From positions 1-33,635 of the IMG/VR virus record IMGVR_UViG_3300027791_000074: 33,635 nucleotides of DNA; one strand, 5' to 3'. Positions 6,209-24,385 of the stretch are shown in pieces (the first letter of the stretch is position 1; the number at the start of each line of letters is the position of its first letter). The notes under the pieces are model-generated. The model was not told the origin of the DNA, did not search any database, and was given only the letters and a program-made list of their open reading frames with translations. A program made the translations under genes and the position numbers. Source of the stretch: a virus.

Positions 6209-6277
6209 GGGGGTGTAAGGGTTTCGACTCAAGCTATTAGTTTGAACACGGTGGTTCAACTCCACCCACCTCCACCA
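6209..6277 (+). ncRNA. Minimal tmRNA-like RNA (tRNA-like domain only)
   Basis: A 69-nt element with both ends of a tmRNA and no tag-coding middle. The acceptor stem GGGGGTG/CACCTCC has the G3-U70 pair of alanine tRNAs and tmRNAs. Discriminator A and an encoded CCA follow. The T arm is perfect (GGTGG/CCACC with loop TTCAACT). The D region is GGGTTTCGAC, the tmRNA signature instead of a D arm. In place of the mRNA-like domain and pseudoknots there is one short arm, TCAAG/TTTGA with loop CTATTAG. Read as a tRNA it would be a D-armless tRNA with anticodon AUU. Normal tmRNAs are about 350 nt. A charged, SmpB-binding decoy is a hypothesis. Confidence 0.72.
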
Positions 6278-14426: not shown

Positions 14427-14476
14427 TTGCAATCGGTGTTTTTTGTGCCATTGTATTAAACATAGCACAACTGCTA
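14427..14476 (+). promoter_or_regulatory. Promoter and hairpin-capped leader
   Basis: TTGCAA (14427-14432), a 16-bp spacer and CATTGT (14449-14454), so transcription should begin near 14461. A hairpin TAGCA/TGCTA (14463-14467 with 14472-14476) sits at the very 5' end. The remaining leader to 14514 is A/C-rich, unstructured, and has no Shine-Dalgarno motif. Confidence 0.6.
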
Positions 14477-14514
14477 CATCGCCAACCACGGCAAAAAACT
14501 AAACACCACATATC

Positions 14515-14754
14515 ATGAATCACCTAGAACAAATCGACGCAATCAAGTCAGAAAAAAGACTTGAGCTTATTGGATCAATCGCCAAAAAACTTAAAGGCAA
14601 AAAAGTTGAGCCTAGCAGTTTCTCAAGTGCAATGCACGAACTAGCAGAGAAAGACAACTCATCTGCTTTTATCGCCCAGTCAATCGACAGTCTAAAAGAC
14701 TTCCAGACTTATGAGAAGCCAGATGAGAATATCTTATCTGAAATGTTTGGATAA
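14515..14754 (+). CDS. Small helical hypothetical protein
   Basis: 79 residues, charged and helical (LEQIDAIKSEKRLELIGSIAKKLKGKKVEP, then HELAEKDNSSAFIAQSIDSLKDFQ). Not recognised. First member of the 14-21 kb block: its own promoter, a leader beginning with a hairpin, and a perfect terminator 9 nt after the stop. Confidence 0.7.
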   Translation: MNHLEQIDAIKSEKRLELIGSIAKKLKGKKVEPSSFSSAMHELAEKDNSSAFIAQSIDSLKDFQTYEKPDENILSEMFG

Positions 14755-15154: not shown

Positions 15155-15373
15155 ATGAAAAGAACCACATCAGTTAAAGAGTTCGGCAAACTGCTGGATG
15201 ATCGCATGAAAGAGTTGAATCGTGAAAACGATCTCTCTCTCCGTATTCTCTCTGTATCGTCTCCGAAGTCTGGTGGCGATGTCGAGATCGTATTCGATGA
15301 CAACAAGGCTATAACCTACCGTTCTGACGGAACATTCACTGGTTTAAGCTACTGGCACGAATCGCAGATCTAA
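15155..15373 (+). CDS. Small hypothetical protein
   Basis: 72 residues from the ATG. The alternative GTG at 15116 in frame lies at the predicted transcription start and is rejected. MKRTTSVKEFGKLLDDRMKELNREN is a charged helix, then beta strands (LSLRILSVSSPKSGGDVEIVFDDNKAITYRSDGTF). Not recognised. One-gene unit with a strong terminator. Confidence 0.7.
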   Translation: MKRTTSVKEFGKLLDDRMKELNRENDLSLRILSVSSPKSGGDVEIVFDDNKAITYRSDGTFTGLSYWHESQI

Positions 15374-15697: not shown

Positions 15698-15726
15698 TTG
15701 ACTCGTTTTAAAAACTAGTTTATTTT
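15698..15726 (+). promoter_or_regulatory. Promoter of the first DUF932 gene
   Basis: TTGACT (15698-15703), a 17-bp spacer and TATTTT (15721-15726). Transcription should start near 15733, directly before the structured leader shared with the second DUF932 gene. Confidence 0.65.
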
Positions 15727-15732
15727 ATAGGC

Positions 15733-15815
15733 CGTTCCTTCTCAGTTTTCCGCAAGTCATGAATCTTTTCCTCGACGGGATTTGAAGACGCTTGGACTGA
15801 GATATCTAACCACAA
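15733..15815 (+). promoter_or_regulatory. Structured leader shared by the two DUF932 genes, copy 1
   Basis: Outer stem TCTCAGT (15740-15746) with ACTGAGA (15796-15802), then CAAG (15753-15756) with CTTG (15791-15794), enclosing a variable apical part. The 5' half CGTTCCTTCTCAGT..CCGCAAGT is nearly identical to the leader at 17391, while the apical sequence differs, as expected for an RNA whose structure and conserved bases matter. It could be a metabolite- or protein-sensing leader. No Rfam family is recognised from memory. Confidence 0.55.
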
Positions 15816-15835
15816 AAAAAAGTAAGTTATATATT

Positions 15836-16648
15836 ATGAAAACATCAATCGAAACACTACTGTCTTGGAATCCAACTGCTACGCCTCTCTCTGATGAGTT
15901 TGGCAAAGTTGGTTACCAGTCTATCCGCCGCGACGACAACAATTCTCTAATTGGAGTAGTTGGTCAAAAGCGTTCCATTATCTCGAATCGCGAGTGTGTT
16001 CAGTCTATCGTAGACATGGCAAACTCGTTAAACGTTCCATTTGGAAACCCTTATGTTAACGAGTTTAACGGAGGCGGAAAAATTCACGTTTCTTTTCCTT
16101 TACCAGAGGAGAAGATACAAGGTGATTCCTTTAATCCAGAATTGCGTTTTACTTTCTCACATGACTCTAGCGAGCGTAGGAGAGTCTATTTCGCTTATTC
16201 ACGCAACGCTTGCTCTAACATCTTTGCAAGTGCTGTTAAAAAAGGAGAAGGAATTTTTGCCAAGTTTTCTCTGAATCATTCGGAGAATTTCGCAAATCGC
16301 ATTTCTGGTTTTCCAGAGAGAATTAAAGAATTAAAATTCGAGACAGACAGTGCTATTCAGCATTTGCAGTCAATCAAAGTAGTTGACCCAATGCCTTATA
16401 TCAAACGCCTTATAAAAGGCGAAGGCAAACGTTCCGATACGATCAGAGAAGAGATCGAAACTCTTTTCCGTTCTGGTCGTGGTAACGTAGGAGAAACCGC
16501 TTATGATATCTTCAACGGTTTTACTGAGTATTTAAACCACTCAGCGACATATAAAGAAACCGAAAATAAGACATCGGCTGAAAATCGCATAAGTAGATTA
16601 GTTAACACCGATATCGTAGATGTCGCGAGAGAGTTAGCTAAAGTCTAA
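15836..16648 (+). CDS. DUF932 family protein, copy 1
   Basis: 270 residues. DUF932 proteins (TIGR03299, phage/plasmid-like) are common on phages and plasmids and lack a firm function. Typical features: an N-terminal region with GYQSIRRDDNNSLIGVVGQKR, a middle with FSHDSSERRRVYFAYSRNACSNI, and the C-terminal GEGKRSDTIREEIETLFRSGRGN followed by ETAYDIFNGFTEYLNH and TYKET. The in-frame TTG at 15782 lies inside the leader, so the ATG at 15836 (ATATTATG context) is chosen. A divergent paralogue follows at 17484. Expressed alone between its leader and an 11-bp terminator. Confidence 0.85.
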   Translation: MKTSIETLLSWNPTATPLSDEFGKVGYQSIRRDDNNSLIGVVGQKRSIISNRECVQSIVDMANSLNVPFGNPYVNEFNGGGKIHVSFPLPEEKIQGDSFNPELRFTFSHDSSERRRVYFAYSRNACSNIFASAVKKGEGIFAKFSLNHSENFANRISGFPERIKELKFETDSAIQHLQSIKVVDPMPYIKRLIKGEGKRSDTIREEIETLFRSGRGNVGETAYDIFNGFTEYLNHSATYKETENKTSAENRISRLVNTDIVDVARELAKV

Positions 16649-16655
16649 AAATTAC

Positions 16656-16692
16656 AAGGTCGTATCGGAAATTCTGATACGGCCTTTTTTTT
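16656..16692 (+). terminator. Strong terminator built from the repeat motif
   Basis: AAGGTCGTATC (16656-16666) pairs with GATACGGCCTT (16676-16686) over 11 bp, followed by a T-run. Its core GTATC..GAAATTCT..GATAC is the same as the spacer repeat units, which links the arrays to terminators. Confidence 0.88.
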
Positions 16693-16726
16693 GGCGTAAT
16701 AATATGAAATAATTTTTTTTCAAATT

Positions 16727-17123
16727 GTATTTGAAATCTGGATACAAAAAATAGAAATATTTTTCCCGTAATATTGTATTTGAAATTCTAATACAGCTTG
16801 GCTGTATTAAAAAAAAGAAATATATTTTCTGAAATAACGTATCAAAAATTCTGATACAGATATTATCTGTATAAAAAAAAGAAATATATTTTGCGAAATA
16901 ATGATTAATTTTTTATTACAGAGCTTGGCTCTGTAAAATAGAAATATATTTTCTTTAATAACGTATCCAAAATTCTGATACAAAAAATAGAAATATATTT
17001 TCCGTAATAATGTATCCAAAATCTTGATACAGATTTATCTGTATCTAAAATCCTAATACAAAAAATAGAAATATATTTTCTGAAATAATGATTAATTTAA
17101 TATTACAGAGCTTGGCTCTGTAA
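16727..17123 (+). repeat. Main hairpin array (about seven units)
   Basis: Tandem units of 50-75 nt: a link AAATAGAAATATATTTTC plus TAATAATG-like bases, then GTATC-(8-9 nt)-GATAC, often extended by a second hairpin with loop CTTGG or TTTA. Stem variants include GTATT/AATAC, GTATC/GATAC and TTACAGAG/CTCTGTAA (17103-17110 with 17116-17123), so the pairing is kept while the sequence changes. GATAC is often shared between a left and a right partner. No ORF is credible here. The whole 16693-17354 gap holds this array, a CTAAATAA tract (17168-17210) and the paired element C. Confidence 0.8.
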
Positions 17124-17218
17124 AAAGTTTTTAGCCTTTAAATAAAGCGCCAGAAGAAAAAAATAATACTAAATAAATAAGCGCGTATAAATAAGCGTAT
17201 ATAAAAGAATAAAATTTT

Positions 17219-17290
17219 CCTGGTGCCGAGTCAAACCGGGTATTAGCCGGTCTTATACCCAGCATTAGCTAAACTTATGGTGCCACCAGG
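17219..17290 (+). repeat. Paired YATTAG-N5-CTTATR element in a three-way junction, copy C
   Basis: TATTAG-CCGGT-CTTATA (17241-17257) and CATTAG-CTAAA-CTTATG (17263-17279), 22 nt apart. The first stem extends by GGG/CCC. Both hairpins are enclosed by CCTGGTG (17219-17225) with CACCAGG (17284-17290), giving a closed three-way junction. This outer stem is not seen in copies A and B. Confidence 0.7.
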
Positions 17291-17354
17291 TCTGCCTTGC
17301 CATTATTGAGTGAAAACTTTTTTTAATTATTTTTCTCTATTTGTGCCTATGGAC

Positions 17355-17384
17355 TTGACTCGCTCTAAAAAACTATGCTATTTT
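17355..17384 (+). promoter_or_regulatory. Promoter of the second DUF932 gene
   Basis: TTGACT (17355-17360) and TATTTT (17379-17384) with an 18-bp spacer, or CTATTT with 17. It aligns with the promoter at 15698 (TTGACTCG start and TATTTTAT). Confidence 0.6.
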
Positions 17385-17390
17385 ATGGCT

Positions 17391-17468
17391 CGTTCCTTCT
17401 CAGTTTTCCGCAAGTGATGTATCTGCCTTTGATCGGGTAGGGGAAACTTGGACTGAGATACTAACCAC
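17391..17468 (+). promoter_or_regulatory. Structured leader shared by the two DUF932 genes, copy 2
   Basis: Outer stem TCTCAGT (17398-17404) with ACTGAGA (17452-17458), then CAAGT (17411-17415) with ACTTG (17446-17450). The apical part can pair CTGCC with GGTAG. Sequence identity to copy 1 is high in the outer and 5' parts and low at the apex. Ends in CTAACCACAAAA, also shared. Confidence 0.55.
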
Positions 17469-17483
17469 AAAAGAAAGTAACTA

Positions 17484-18293
17484 ATGAAAACACTAAATGC
17501 ACAAAACGCACTTGAACTGCAAATCGTCGAAACAAAACTCAATTGTGAGTTTAAGCAAATCGACATTAACGGTGAGTATGCCGCGACTGTAGGAATCAAA
17601 CGTTCGATTCCAACATTCGAGAATTTACTCGATCCATTCGTTCATCTGTCTAACGGCTTGCAAGTCGAGTTCGATCCTAAGGTTGAGCTTTTCCGATCTA
17701 AGTTCGGGACTGAGGGCGCATCCTACGCGATGTCAATGCCACTTGGTAAAATCGATCTAGGCGGACGTGAGACAGAAACTCGCATCATTCGTCGAGGATC
17801 ATTCAATTCATCCGCTTCCGATTCATTCGGAATTCAGATGATGGTAATGATTTGTTCAAACGGGATGATGGGATGGAAAGCCGAAAGCGAAAGCGGACGC
17901 GCTAAGAGTCGCTTCTCACTCAACTGGGAATCAAACGCGGGAAGTAAAATCGATGCAATGCTAGACGGCTTTTCGTCAATGCAGAATCGATACATACGAA
18001 TCGCGGACGAACTTAAAGAGACTCAACTCTCTAAAAAACAAGTCGATGCAAGACTTGAAAAGTTGTTCGGTAAAGATTCAAAGCAGTCGAATCGAGTGCG
18101 TGAACAAGTCGAAACGCTGTTTGTTTCGGGTAAAGGTAATCGTGGAGAAAACGCATGGGATTTATTCAATGCCGTCACGGAGTATCAAAACCACGAACGA
18201 ACTTATAAAGAGACTTCAGTTTCGTCCGATGAAAATCGTCGAAAGGGAATTCTAGATATCGACTTCGATCAACTTGCAGAAATCGTAGGATAA
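17484..18293 (+). CDS. DUF932 family protein, copy 2
   Basis: 269 residues, divergent paralogue of the 15836 gene. Shared blocks: [15 protein letters not shown], the middle [31 protein letters not shown], and the C-terminal [40 protein letters not shown]. Function of the family is not established. Codon use is GC-richer at third positions than in copy 1, which suggests a separate origin or a different expression level. Preceded by the same structured leader. Its stop overlaps a 14-codon hydrophobic ORF (TAATG), and a strong terminator follows. Confidence 0.85.
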
Positions 18294-18376: not shown

Positions 18377-18398
18377 TGCCTAAAAACCGGTAATAGTT

Positions 18399-18650
18399 GT
18401 ATCGAAAATTTTGATACAAAAAAAGTTTTGTAAGTCTAAATAGTGTATCGAAAATCCTAATACGTCCAGGCGACGTATAAAAAAATAGAAATATTTTTCA
18501 CGTAATAGTGTATCGGAAATCTTGATACAGATTTATCTGTATCGAAAATCGTAATACAAAAATAGAAATATTTTTCCCTAAATAACAATCCATTTTATAT
18601 TATAGAGCTTGGCTCTATAAAGGTTTTTACTGTATCGAGAATCTTGATAC
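18399..18650 (+). repeat. Hairpin array, second copy
   Basis: Units of the same type as at 16.7 kb: GTATC..GATAC (18399-18417), TACGTC/GACGTA, GTATC..GATACAGA..TCTGTATC, a TATAGAG/CTCTATA hairpin with loop CTTGG (18601-18617), and a last GTATC..GATAC (18632-18650). Links AAATAGAAATATTTTTC recur. Confidence 0.75.
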
Positions 18651-18905: not shown

Positions 18906-18957
18906 TTGACATGCCATTATAATTCTATTCTATTTTAGAGCATAGCACCTCTGCTAT
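18906..18957 (+). promoter_or_regulatory. Promoter and hairpin-capped leader
   Basis: TTGACA (18906-18911), a 16-bp spacer and TTCTAT (18928-18933), start near 18940. The leader begins with ATAGCA/TGCTAT (18942-18947 with 18952-18957, 4-nt loop). AAAAAAAAGATTAATTTAT upstream of the -35 is repeated before the promoter at 19663 and may act as an UP element. Confidence 0.6.
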
Positions 18958-18999
18958 TTTCAATTCAAAGGTCGCGATCTCCTCAATCGCCTTTCAACT

Positions 19000-19365
19000 A
19001 TGTCATTCACCTACGATCACCTAATCAGCACCTTCGGAGAAAACAGCTTCGAAGGACAGGACGTTTCAATCGACATCTCCTTAAAAGAGTATGGTCTCGC
19101 ATGGCAAGTCCTTGGAAGTAAAACGAAGTTCGTTTATGGCGTCGAATGGGACGGTTCCAAGGGCGAGTTCAAGTCCTTTGATCACTCCTTCTTAGATAGC
19201 GATATCGATGTCTTATCAGACTTCGATTGGGCGGACTTCGATGCCATCTACTCATACACTGGTCTAAGTGCAGATCAGTGGAAGGAGCTTTCAGTTCCAC
19301 AAAAGATCACTGACCTAGTATCATACTACGGTCGAGAAAACATCTTTGGCATGGCAAGCGTGTAA
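19000..19365 (+). CDS. Acidic hypothetical protein
   Basis: 121 residues, not recognised. Acidic and aromatic: VYGVEWDGSKGEFKSFDHSFLDSDIDVLSDFDWADFDAIYSYTG, then a helical end with VPQKITDLVSYYGRENIFG. No catalytic motif. One-gene unit with its own hairpin-capped leader and terminator. Third-position C and G are frequent, as in the other genes of this block. Confidence 0.7.
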   Translation: MSFTYDHLISTFGENSFEGQDVSIDISLKEYGLAWQVLGSKTKFVYGVEWDGSKGEFKSFDHSFLDSDIDVLSDFDWADFDAIYSYTGLSADQWKELSVPQKITDLVSYYGRENIFGMASV

Positions 19366-19662: not shown

Positions 19663-19717
19663 TTGACACCCTATCTGACTGCACTACCTTCTCTTATGTC
19701 GGGGAGCAATTCAGCTC
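19663..19717 (+). promoter_or_regulatory. Promoter and hairpin-capped leader
   Basis: TTGACA (19663-19668), a 16-bp spacer and TACCTT (19685-19690), start near 19697. The leader begins with GAGC/GCTC (19704-19707 with 19714-19717). AAAAAAAAGATTAATTTTT lies upstream, as at 18890. Confidence 0.6.
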
Positions 19718-19739
19718 AAACAACTCGACCTTATACACC

Positions 19740-20069
19740 ATGACTAAAGCAATACTATTAGACCCGCAAACATCCACCATCTCAGAGACTGAGGTCGATG
19801 GCTTCGAAGACATCCAACGCAAGATTGGTTGCCGTTGTTTCACATGCGTTCGCTTCCCAGATGGCAAGCACGTAGCCTACGTCGATGACGAAGGTCTTAT
19901 CAATGGCACCGAGTATGGCACGGTGTTCTCAGATGACATCTACCCAGAGCCTCTCGCAGGTCGTGTTCTCATCCTAGGAGATGACGGAGCAGGTGGAGAT
20001 GCAGACTGCGAGCTGACTGGCGCAGACATTAAGAAGATGGTGAAAGGCACCGTTCAGTTTCAGCACTAG
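19740..20069 (+). CDS. DUF3846 family protein
   Basis: 109 residues. DUF3846 pattern: an opening AILLDPQTSTISETEVDGFEDIQRKIGC, then FPDGKHVAYVDDEGLINGTEYG, and EPLAGRVLILGDDGAGGDADCEL. The family is common on phages and plasmids and of unknown function. The spacing of the DDEG turn and the GDD...D end is typical. Expressed alone between its hairpin-capped leader and a G/C-rich terminator. Confidence 0.85.
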   Translation: MTKAILLDPQTSTISETEVDGFEDIQRKIGCRCFTCVRFPDGKHVAYVDDEGLINGTEYGTVFSDDIYPEPLAGRVLILGDDGAGGDADCELTGADIKKMVKGTVQFQH

Positions 20070-20370: not shown

Positions 20371-20421
20371 TTGTGGTATGCGGAAAACTAGTCATTCTTT
20401 TGATCATACCAATTAAGGTAT
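20371..20421 (+). promoter_or_regulatory. Promoter and hairpin-capped leader
   Basis: TTGTGG (20371-20376, weak -35), a 16-bp spacer and CATTCT (20393-20398, the same -10 as at 15109). The predicted start near 20405 is followed by ATACC/GGTAT (20406-20410 with 20417-20421). AACCACATCATATAA then leads to the ATG at 20441. Confidence 0.55.
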
Positions 20422-20440
20422 ATTAAACCACATCATATAA

Positions 20441-20878
20441 ATGAAAAAAATCGAAGCACTACAAAACCTACGCAAGGGCACTTTCGCCATTGCTCGAATC
20501 GTCTCAACTAAAAAGCCACTTAAGGCATTTGCTCAGCACGACATTAAAAAAGTTGTCTTGGCAACTGTTCGCACTGGAGTTGAGTTCAAGAATCTTGCAG
20601 TCAATGCGGATCGTCAAACTGGATCGCTTCCTTGGGGCGAGTGGGAAACATACCCATACGCTATAACTCATAAAGGCAATCGTTACATTCGCCTTTACCT
20701 TGGCAACTCAATGAAGGTTCTTTACTTCGTGGACGGAGTGAAAGTTGCAAGCCAAGTTGCAAAAGCAATGCTTCCTAAGAATAACTCAACTGGCAAGCCA
20801 AGTTGCATCACAGTTAAAGAAGGCGGACTTGTCAGCATAAAGCAAAACGGAAAGGAGTTGCTAAATGGAAACTCTTAA
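20441..20878 (+). CDS. Conserved phage protein (LPWGEW family)
   Basis: 145 residues. RKGTFAIARIVSTKKPLKA, a GVEFKNLAVNADRQ, SLPWGEWETYPYAITHKGNRYIRLYLGNS block near residues 60-92, and a C-terminal VSIKQNGKEL. The same order is seen in phage proteins annotated hypothetical. Basic and beta-rich, so nucleic-acid binding is possible but unproven. The next gene starts inside its end. Confidence 0.7.
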   Translation: MKKIEALQNLRKGTFAIARIVSTKKPLKAFAQHDIKKVVLATVRTGVEFKNLAVNADRQTGSLPWGEWETYPYAITHKGNRYIRLYLGNSMKVLYFVDGVKVASQVAKAMLPKNNSTGKPSCITVKEGGLVSIKQNGKELLNGNS

Positions 20879-23357: not shown

Positions 23358-23690
23358 ATGAAATATTGCATGGAATGTGGAAGTAAAGTTGAATCTTCAG
23401 GAGGTAGAATGCCTAAGTTTTGCATGGATTGTGGAGAGTCTTTGGATGGAGAGTCGAAATCTACTAATAGTGAAGCAAAAAATATTACCGCATCTAGTTC
23501 TGTTAAGCCAGATGATATTTTTCAAATTGAAGGTTCTGGTCAAGACCCAGAATCTTCTGTGTTTACCTTCGAGAAGGTATTGGGATCCAAAGAACACAAA
23601 ACCAGTTTAAATAGACCTAAAGGTTCTAAAGATATAAAAGACTTAAAAAGTCGGCTAAGAAATAGAGACTCTATAGACGCCAACCAATAA
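23358..23690 (+). CDS. Zinc-ribbon protein
   Basis: 110 residues. The N-terminus holds C4-x2-C7 and C22-x2-C25 (YCMECGSK and FCMDCGES), a zinc ribbon of the DZR or zf-ribbon type. The rest is low-complexity, Ser/Glu-rich, with a basic C-terminus (KDIKDLKSRLRNRDS). The stop overlaps the ATG of the sigma factor (TAATG), so the two are made together. It could be a partner of the sigma factor in transcription, by context. Confidence 0.75.
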   Translation: MKYCMECGSKVESSGGRMPKFCMDCGESLDGESKSTNSEAKNITASSSVKPDDIFQIEGSGQDPESSVFTFEKVLGSKEHKTSLNRPKGSKDIKDLKSRLRNRDSIDANQ

Positions 23691-24385
23691 TGTCCATATC
23701 TTTTGAACAACTTGAGCCAATTATCGATCTGATATTGGAGAAAAATCGTTCTAGGTGGAAACTTGGTGCGGTTAAGCATTTTGACTTTGATGACCTGAAA
23801 CAAGAGGTTAAAGTCCATGTTTATAATAAGCTTCATATGTGGAATAGGAAAAGGCCTTTCGAGCCTTGGGTGAGTCAGGTGATTCATAATCAAATACAAA
23901 ATAAGAAAAGAAATTTATGGAGAAATCATGAAAAGCCGTGTTCTGGATGTTACTTTAATAAAGGGATGGGGAATTGTTCCTTTACTAATTCTGGCGACCA
24001 ATGTTCTGAATGTCCAGAATTCTCTCACTGGGAAAAGAAGAAGAAAAACGCTTATGAGCTAAAGACAGCTATTTCCGTAGAAAATGAGGGTGGCGAAATA
24101 CCCTATGGTTCTCCAATAGAAATAGATCATGAAGAATTTTTAAAAAGATTAGATTTTATTTTAAAGAGCGACTTACAAAAAGATCATCTTGATTTAGTAA
24201 CTTACAATATATTTAGATTAACTTGGATTGAAAAATTATCTGACAAAGAAATCGCCAAAAAAATGGGCTACAAAACTAATGAAGAAAATAGAGGAGCAGG
24301 CTATAGAAGTTTGGCCAGCCACAGAAAGATCGTTCATAATAGGGCAAAAGAAATATTAGAAAAAGAAGATTATAATTTTATTTAA
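23690..24385 (+). CDS. Phage RNA polymerase sigma factor with zinc-binding insertion
   Basis: 231 residues. Region 2 is residues 20-80 (HFDFDDLKQEVKVHVYNKLH, PFEPWVSQVIHNQIQNKKRN). Region 4 is a helix-turn-helix at about 165-195 (TYNIFRLTWIEKLSDKEIAKKMG). Between them a Cys cluster (C84, C87, C96, C105, C108) is likely a zinc-binding linker. It would direct RNA polymerase to phage promoters and so control late genes. A conventional sigma has no such insertion, although phage sigmas of this type exist. Coupled by TAATG to the zinc-ribbon gene. Confidence 0.82.
   Translation: MSISFEQLEPIIDLILEKNRSRWKLGAVKHFDFDDLKQEVKVHVYNKLHMWNRKRPFEPWVSQVIHNQIQNKKRNLWRNHEKPCSGCYFNKGMGNCSFTNSGDQCSECPEFSHWEKKKKNAYELKTAISVENEGGEIPYGSPIEIDHEEFLKRLDFILKSDLQKDHLDLVTYNIFRLTWIEKLSDKEIAKKMGYKTNEENRGAGYRSLASHRKIVHNRAKEILEKEDYNFI

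Follow-up and report, generated by a model that had tools for sequence, protein, structure and literature searches.

A conserved structured leader RNA at the predicted 5' ends of two DUF932 messages, one of several leader classes in a phage gene cluster

The 5' stem-loops of ompA and papA stabilise the mRNAs that carry them, and the put sites of HK022 are antitermination RNAs near the promoter. In phage T4, the translational operator of gene 32 is described as a pseudoknot bound by gp32 (PMC3014915; PMC535899), and the manA and wcaG motifs are described as 5' UTR RNAs of phages, found in cyanophages (PMC2864571). Here we analysed a viral DNA of 33,635 nucleotides (IMG/VR record IMGVR_UViG_3300027791_000074, positions 1 to 33,635; the window), in which a leader RNA precedes two DUF932 genes. 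Like the manA and wcaG motifs as described in that source, it is a conserved structured phage leader found by comparison; unlike them, it stands ahead of different genes and is matched by no Rfam model. With the gene 32 operator it shares a structure in a phage 5' leader upstream of the gene and an unstructured A-rich stretch ahead of the start codon; that operator is a gp32-bound pseudoknot, and the structures predicted here are hairpins. As in ompA and papA, a hairpin is predicted at the 5' end of the message, and two classes of neighbouring leaders (alpha and beta, below) are flush with the predicted start. The DUF932 leader differs in its 7-nt conserved tail and sequence-invariant loops, and a stabilising role is putative here.

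The two genes lie on the plus strand and encode DUF932-A (270 aa, 15836-16648) and DUF932-B (269 aa, 17484-18293). Both match PF06067 (E = 2.4e-12 and 6.3e-11) and pass its gathering score of 23 bits (47.5 and 42.9 bits). Searched in full text for DUF932, the open PMC library yielded 10 papers, none with the name in its title or abstract, and the leader gives a first handle on this family. A first AlphaFold model from 5 sequences was too poor for use (pLDDT 36.5); the model of DUF932-B used here reached a pLDDT of 72.3. It has no significant relative among solved structures. RAD52 made up 14 of its best 50 solved-structure matches, with E-values of 0.1 or worse and rmsd of 12-24 Å. The VIA list was headed by actin capping protein (Z = 5.0) and held no Z of 8 or more, and RAD52 was absent among the best 50 matches listed. 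The significant viral matches include proteins annotated as DUF932 or TIGR03299.

An earlier note, made from the sequence alone, had claimed shared sequence blocks ahead of the two genes. CGTTCCTTCTCAGT stands at 15733 and 17391 and nowhere else in the window, and CCGCAAGT and GGACTGAGAT are indeed common to both copies. Copy A of this leader (leader I) spans 15733-15813 and copy B 17391-17468, both on the plus strand; the 3' end is AACCAC, ending at 15813 and 17468, respectively. A promoter is predicted on the same strand at 15698-15726 for DUF932-A (TTGACT, spacer of 17, TATTTT; kept in the related record G001) and at 17355-17384 for DUF932-B (TTGACT, spacer of 18, TATTTT). Since the promoter is also common to the copies, what is conserved is the promoter together with the leader. 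From these promoters we infer that transcription starts at 15733 and 17391. In all five leader I copies described below, the conserved block begins exactly at the predicted start, an agreement favoured by the promoter choice, which was limited to starts lying at most 6 nt beyond the hairpin. A terminator scan found no intrinsic terminator overlapping either leader, and terminators lie downstream of both DUF932 genes. By eye, no Shine-Dalgarno sequence was seen for the DUF932 leaders.

The element is also present in two further IMG/VR records. G001 (141,669 bases) is largely colinear with the window at roughly 85% DNA identity and has the two leaders as well as the two genes. G002 (17,799 bases) carries copy B, for a total of five copies, all ahead of DUF932. 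Changes that break both stems were seen in no relative. Between the window and G001, the leaders differ at 3 of 81 (A) and 1 of 78 positions (B), compared with 20 of 115 and 30 of 110 fourfold sites of the genes (Fisher, P = 0.003 and 4e-7); between the window and G002, the counts are 1 of 78 and 11 of 118. The leaders thus change far less than the fourfold sites of their genes, which supports the proposed selection on the leader RNA. In the upstream intergenic DNA, 83 of 269 (A) and 43 of 218 (B) aligned sites differ between the window and G001. The two genes have diverged strongly from each other (proteins 30% identical; 29 of 39 comparable fourfold sites differ) while the leaders have stayed close, as had been noted, with differences at 15 of 78 aligned sites plus 3 gap positions. 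The differences in the apical part, also pointed out before, take the form of A-specific and B-specific sequences that recur in both the window and G001, which dates the split between the copies to before that between the phages.

A covariance model (R1) found all five leader I copies and no further copy in the window or the six related records. DNA searches for relatives of the leader returned six short chance matches in the phage collection (E = 0.3 or worse) and none in the plasmid collection. Gapped-pattern matches away from DUF932 (L014, L015) lay inside coding genes and were hence dismissed as chance, as was a match with 3 mismatches in G003. A looser pattern retrieved 13 stretches, namely five DUF932-B leaders and eight unrelated ones, three of the latter being one sequence repeated; the five are no independent test because the pattern was built from those leaders. 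One alignment (A8) with two misplaced rows was set aside.

Both copies can pair in the same two stems, as the first reading of the sequence had proposed. P1 is formed by UCUCAGUU and GACUGAGA (15740-15747 with 15795-15802 in copy A; 17398-17405 with 17451-17458 in copy B), and its 5' strand is invariant in all five copies. P2 pairs CAAGU with GCUUG in copy A (15753-15757 with 15790-15794) and with ACUUG in copy B (17411-17415 with 17446-17450). The apical hairpin is UCC[UCGACG]GGA in copy A (15769-15780) and UCUGCCU[UUGAUC]GGGUAGG in copy B (17422-17441). The layout thus runs from a 7-nt conserved unpaired start through P1, a conserved U-rich bulge and P2 to an apical hairpin whose hexaloop reads UYGAYS. 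Across the five copies 62 of 81 columns are invariant, and unpaired bases are kept too. P1 and four of the five P2 pairs never vary and therefore have no support from co-variation; the one variable P2 pair is U-A or U-G. In copy A, one apical pair is changed on both sides between the window and G001 (UCC[UCGACG]GGA to CCC[UCGACG]GGG), and an apical pair of copy B is G-U in the window and A-U in G002. Co-variation thus supports the apical hairpin only, not P1.

The predicted folds are of ordinary stability (z between -0.12 and -1.87 for seven folded stretches). The minimum-energy fold of copy A in the window keeps P1 and loses P2 (-17.8 kcal/mol versus -13.0 kcal/mol for P1, P2 and P3 together), and both P1 and P2 are present in the folds of copy A of G001 and of all three B copies. 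In the B copies, UUUCC/GGAAA competes with P2 (-17.7 versus -21.8 kcal/mol); its 3' strand, GGAAA, is missing from copy A. Rfam 15 yielded no leader match in the window at the gathering score and, at E up to 10, weak unrelated matches only (E = 1.7 or worse). The leader constitutes an RNA family that Rfam lacks.

Scanning with the conserved C terminus of DUF932 yielded four related records (G004-G007) with two DUF932 genes each, hereafter group II. Their DUF932-B proteins are 57-60% identical to that of the window, and their DUF932-B genes follow a conserved leader (leader II) roughly 190 nt long, which has the blocks GTTC-N-TT, TTTTCC and CTTTGATCGG in common with leader I, in the same order and with similar spacing. 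The predicted start of leader II adjoins GTTC, and its apical loop is the same as in copy B. R1 found no group-II leader. In local alignments of leaders I and II, the score of copy B was reached by 1 to 13 of 1000 shuffles (six comparisons) and that of copy A by 52 to 514, so that copy A has no significant similarity to leader II; the register of the best alignment differs from that of the described blocks. Because R1 misses leader II and the alignment statistics are mixed, we grade the kinship of the two leaders as probable only. With all leaders anchored on the hexaloop, UYGAYS is found in nine of nine from both phage groups, and the third apical stem pair is U-A, C-G or G-C.

As a whole, leader II folds no better than shuffles. 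In its helix UUUCC/GGAAA, two adjacent pairs are double-changed in G005, as is a third pair elsewhere; the comparison covered three of the four group-II sequences, and the fourth is the same as one of these. In one group-II leader of 190 nt (L021, 1750-1939), GAUUCUAG and the downstream CUAGAAUU could, judged by eye, form an alternative fold. The other DUF932 gene has an unrelated hairpin leader, GUA(G/A)CUAU-CGU-AUAGUUAC, in all four group-II phages.

Structured leaders of two further classes stand ahead of single genes nearby, in the window all on the plus strand. A class alpha leader, GUCGGG-GAGC[AAUUCA]GCUC-AAACAA-CUCGAC, lies at 19697-19739 ahead of g7 (19740-20069). Class beta leaders, hairpins of 4-6 bp with a six-base loop that occur ahead of g2, g6, g7 or g8, lie at 14461-14514 ahead of g2 (14515-14754; its hairpin has only 4 bp here, as against 5 bp in G001), at 18941-18999 ahead of g6 (19000-19365; CAUAGC[ACCUCU]GCUAU) and at 20405-20440 ahead of g8 (20441-20878; CAUACC[AAUUAA]GGUAU), where the promoter scan found none. 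Alpha is present in nine full copies ahead of g7 and g8, seven of them informative because two G006 copies repeat G004 sequences. Its loop AAUUCA and bulge AAACAA are invariant, and all ten pairs are kept in the nine copies, with several two-sided changes. A copy ahead of g3 (gene at 15155) keeps the loop and not the outer helix; one string match in G007 was unrelated. The leader of g7 is alpha in the window, G001, G002, G004 and G005 and beta in G007, that of g8 is beta in the window, G001, G002 and G007, and G004 and G005 each have two g8 genes, one with alpha and one with beta. As g7 and g8 carry different classes in different phages, these leaders behave as exchangeable modules.

The tail from the predicted start is 1 nt in 7/7 alpha and 3/3 group-II p1 copies, and 12 of 13 beta hairpins begin within -2 to 0 nt of the predicted start, the thirteenth having no promoter call. 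By contrast, the predicted tail to the hairpin is 7 nt in all five leader I copies, compared with at most 1 nt in 22 of 23 other leaders. Codons ending in C are more frequent in the cluster genes (126 of 230) than elsewhere (378 of 1021; P = 1e-6), which suggests that the cluster genes are highly expressed. Leader length differed between cluster and other genes with P = 0.06, and among the 27 non-cluster genes with a -35 match, 14 have predicted leaders no longer than 3 nt (12 of 25 once two genes with mis-set starts were removed); this survey of codons and leader lengths covered 45 hand-picked genes, and its -35 list, a loose choice, included TTGTGG. Between window positions 1200 and 14200, the start codon often directly follows the promoter, and many messages may therefore be leaderless.

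Upstream of four cluster genes, both DUF932 genes among them, the motif ATTAG-N5-CTTAT occurs as tandem pairs on one strand (14987, 15009, 15560, 15582, 17242, 17264, 20273 and 20304), and three of the four pairs have a spacing of 22 bp. The motif is also present in G001, G002, G004, G005 and G007. The pairs look like candidate binding sites two helical turns apart.

We propose, tentatively and as our preferred reading, that the leader is a 5'-end module that acts on message stability or translation via a binding factor. Each of the two DUF932 messages would begin with this cis-acting RNA, one of several exchangeable structured leaders on single genes of the cluster. The RNA would set message lifetime or ribosome access for messages with no Shine-Dalgarno sequence, through its 5'-end hairpin and an RNA-binding factor, of host or phage origin, that recognises the unvarying unpaired bases. 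We propose this because the leaders lie at the predicted 5' ends of single-gene messages, their unpaired bases are kept along with their pairs, and alpha and beta leaders move between genes. Simple protection of the 5' end is weakened by the 7-nt unpaired tail, unlike the flush neighbours. Against such a module, leader I precedes DUF932 only, which fits a product-specific role equally, the folding energies are unexceptional, and the difference in leader length reaches P = 0.06 only. If confirmed, the module would show how a phage with no Shine-Dalgarno sequences in its messages picks transcripts for longer life or better translation. More broadly, the analysis adds a gene cluster whose structured 5' ends are exchanged among its genes. 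A bolder and rather doubtful extension is that interchangeable structured 5' ends mark co-regulated transcripts like RNA caps, read by one RNA-binding factor; the hairpins would lie exactly at the transcription start and be swapped between genes, and many other messages of the same phage would begin at or next to the start codon.

The main rival to the 5' module is feedback by the DUF932 proteins, each binding its own and its paralogue's leader and repressing translation as T4 gp32 does. All five leader I copies and the probably related leader of the four group-II phages precede DUF932, R1 matches nothing else in the window or the six related records, the unpaired bases are invariant, and RAD52 recurs among the structure matches of DUF932-B. 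Those matches are not significant, however, other folds fill the VIA list, and in each of the four group-II phages the second DUF932 gene lacks the leader, which makes half of the DUF932 genes in that group; we consider such autogenous control possible but doubtful. The leader probably controls message survival or translation rather than sensing a metabolite. The metabolite sensor suggested in the earlier note found no support, given that no terminator overlaps the leaders, no Shine-Dalgarno sequence was seen, Rfam offers no match and the neighbours exchange other leader classes. The first two of these points make a classical riboswitch unlikely, and the genes downstream have no assigned function. 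A compact conserved leader with invariant loops would suit a metabolite or ion riboswitch, and phage candidates are described in manA and wcaG (PMC2864571), yet we regard this as highly improbable.

An RNA acting close to the promoter to load or modify RNA polymerase, as the put sites of HK022 do, would explain structured RNA at predicted transcript starts and the terminators that follow both DUF932 genes. With single genes closed by terminators, however, read-through would gain nothing obvious, and we find this improbable. Least probable of all is a DNA-level operator, or a recent gene-conversion copy with no RNA function. In favour, the promoter is conserved along with the leader, but apical changes preserve pairs and the A- and B-specific apical parts of the window and G001 place the separation of the copies before the phage split.

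Other features of these phages were also recorded. In the window, intergenic stretches at 16700-17130 and 18390-18640 are rich in short inverted repeats (GTATCnnAAATnnTGATAC, CAGAGCTTGGCTCTG) between AGAAATAT stretches. Four phages of both groups have an RNA of 69-70 nt (window, 6209-6277; L016, 8033-8102; L045, 4482-4551; L041, 9912-9981, minus strand) whose match spans the Rfam tmRNA model end to end, and we therefore regard it as the tRNA-like part of a tmRNA with no message. Its acceptor and T arm do not vary, and two of the four copies encode the CCA end. The window further encodes a sigma-factor-like protein at 23690-24385 (phrog_1740, Sigma70_r2).
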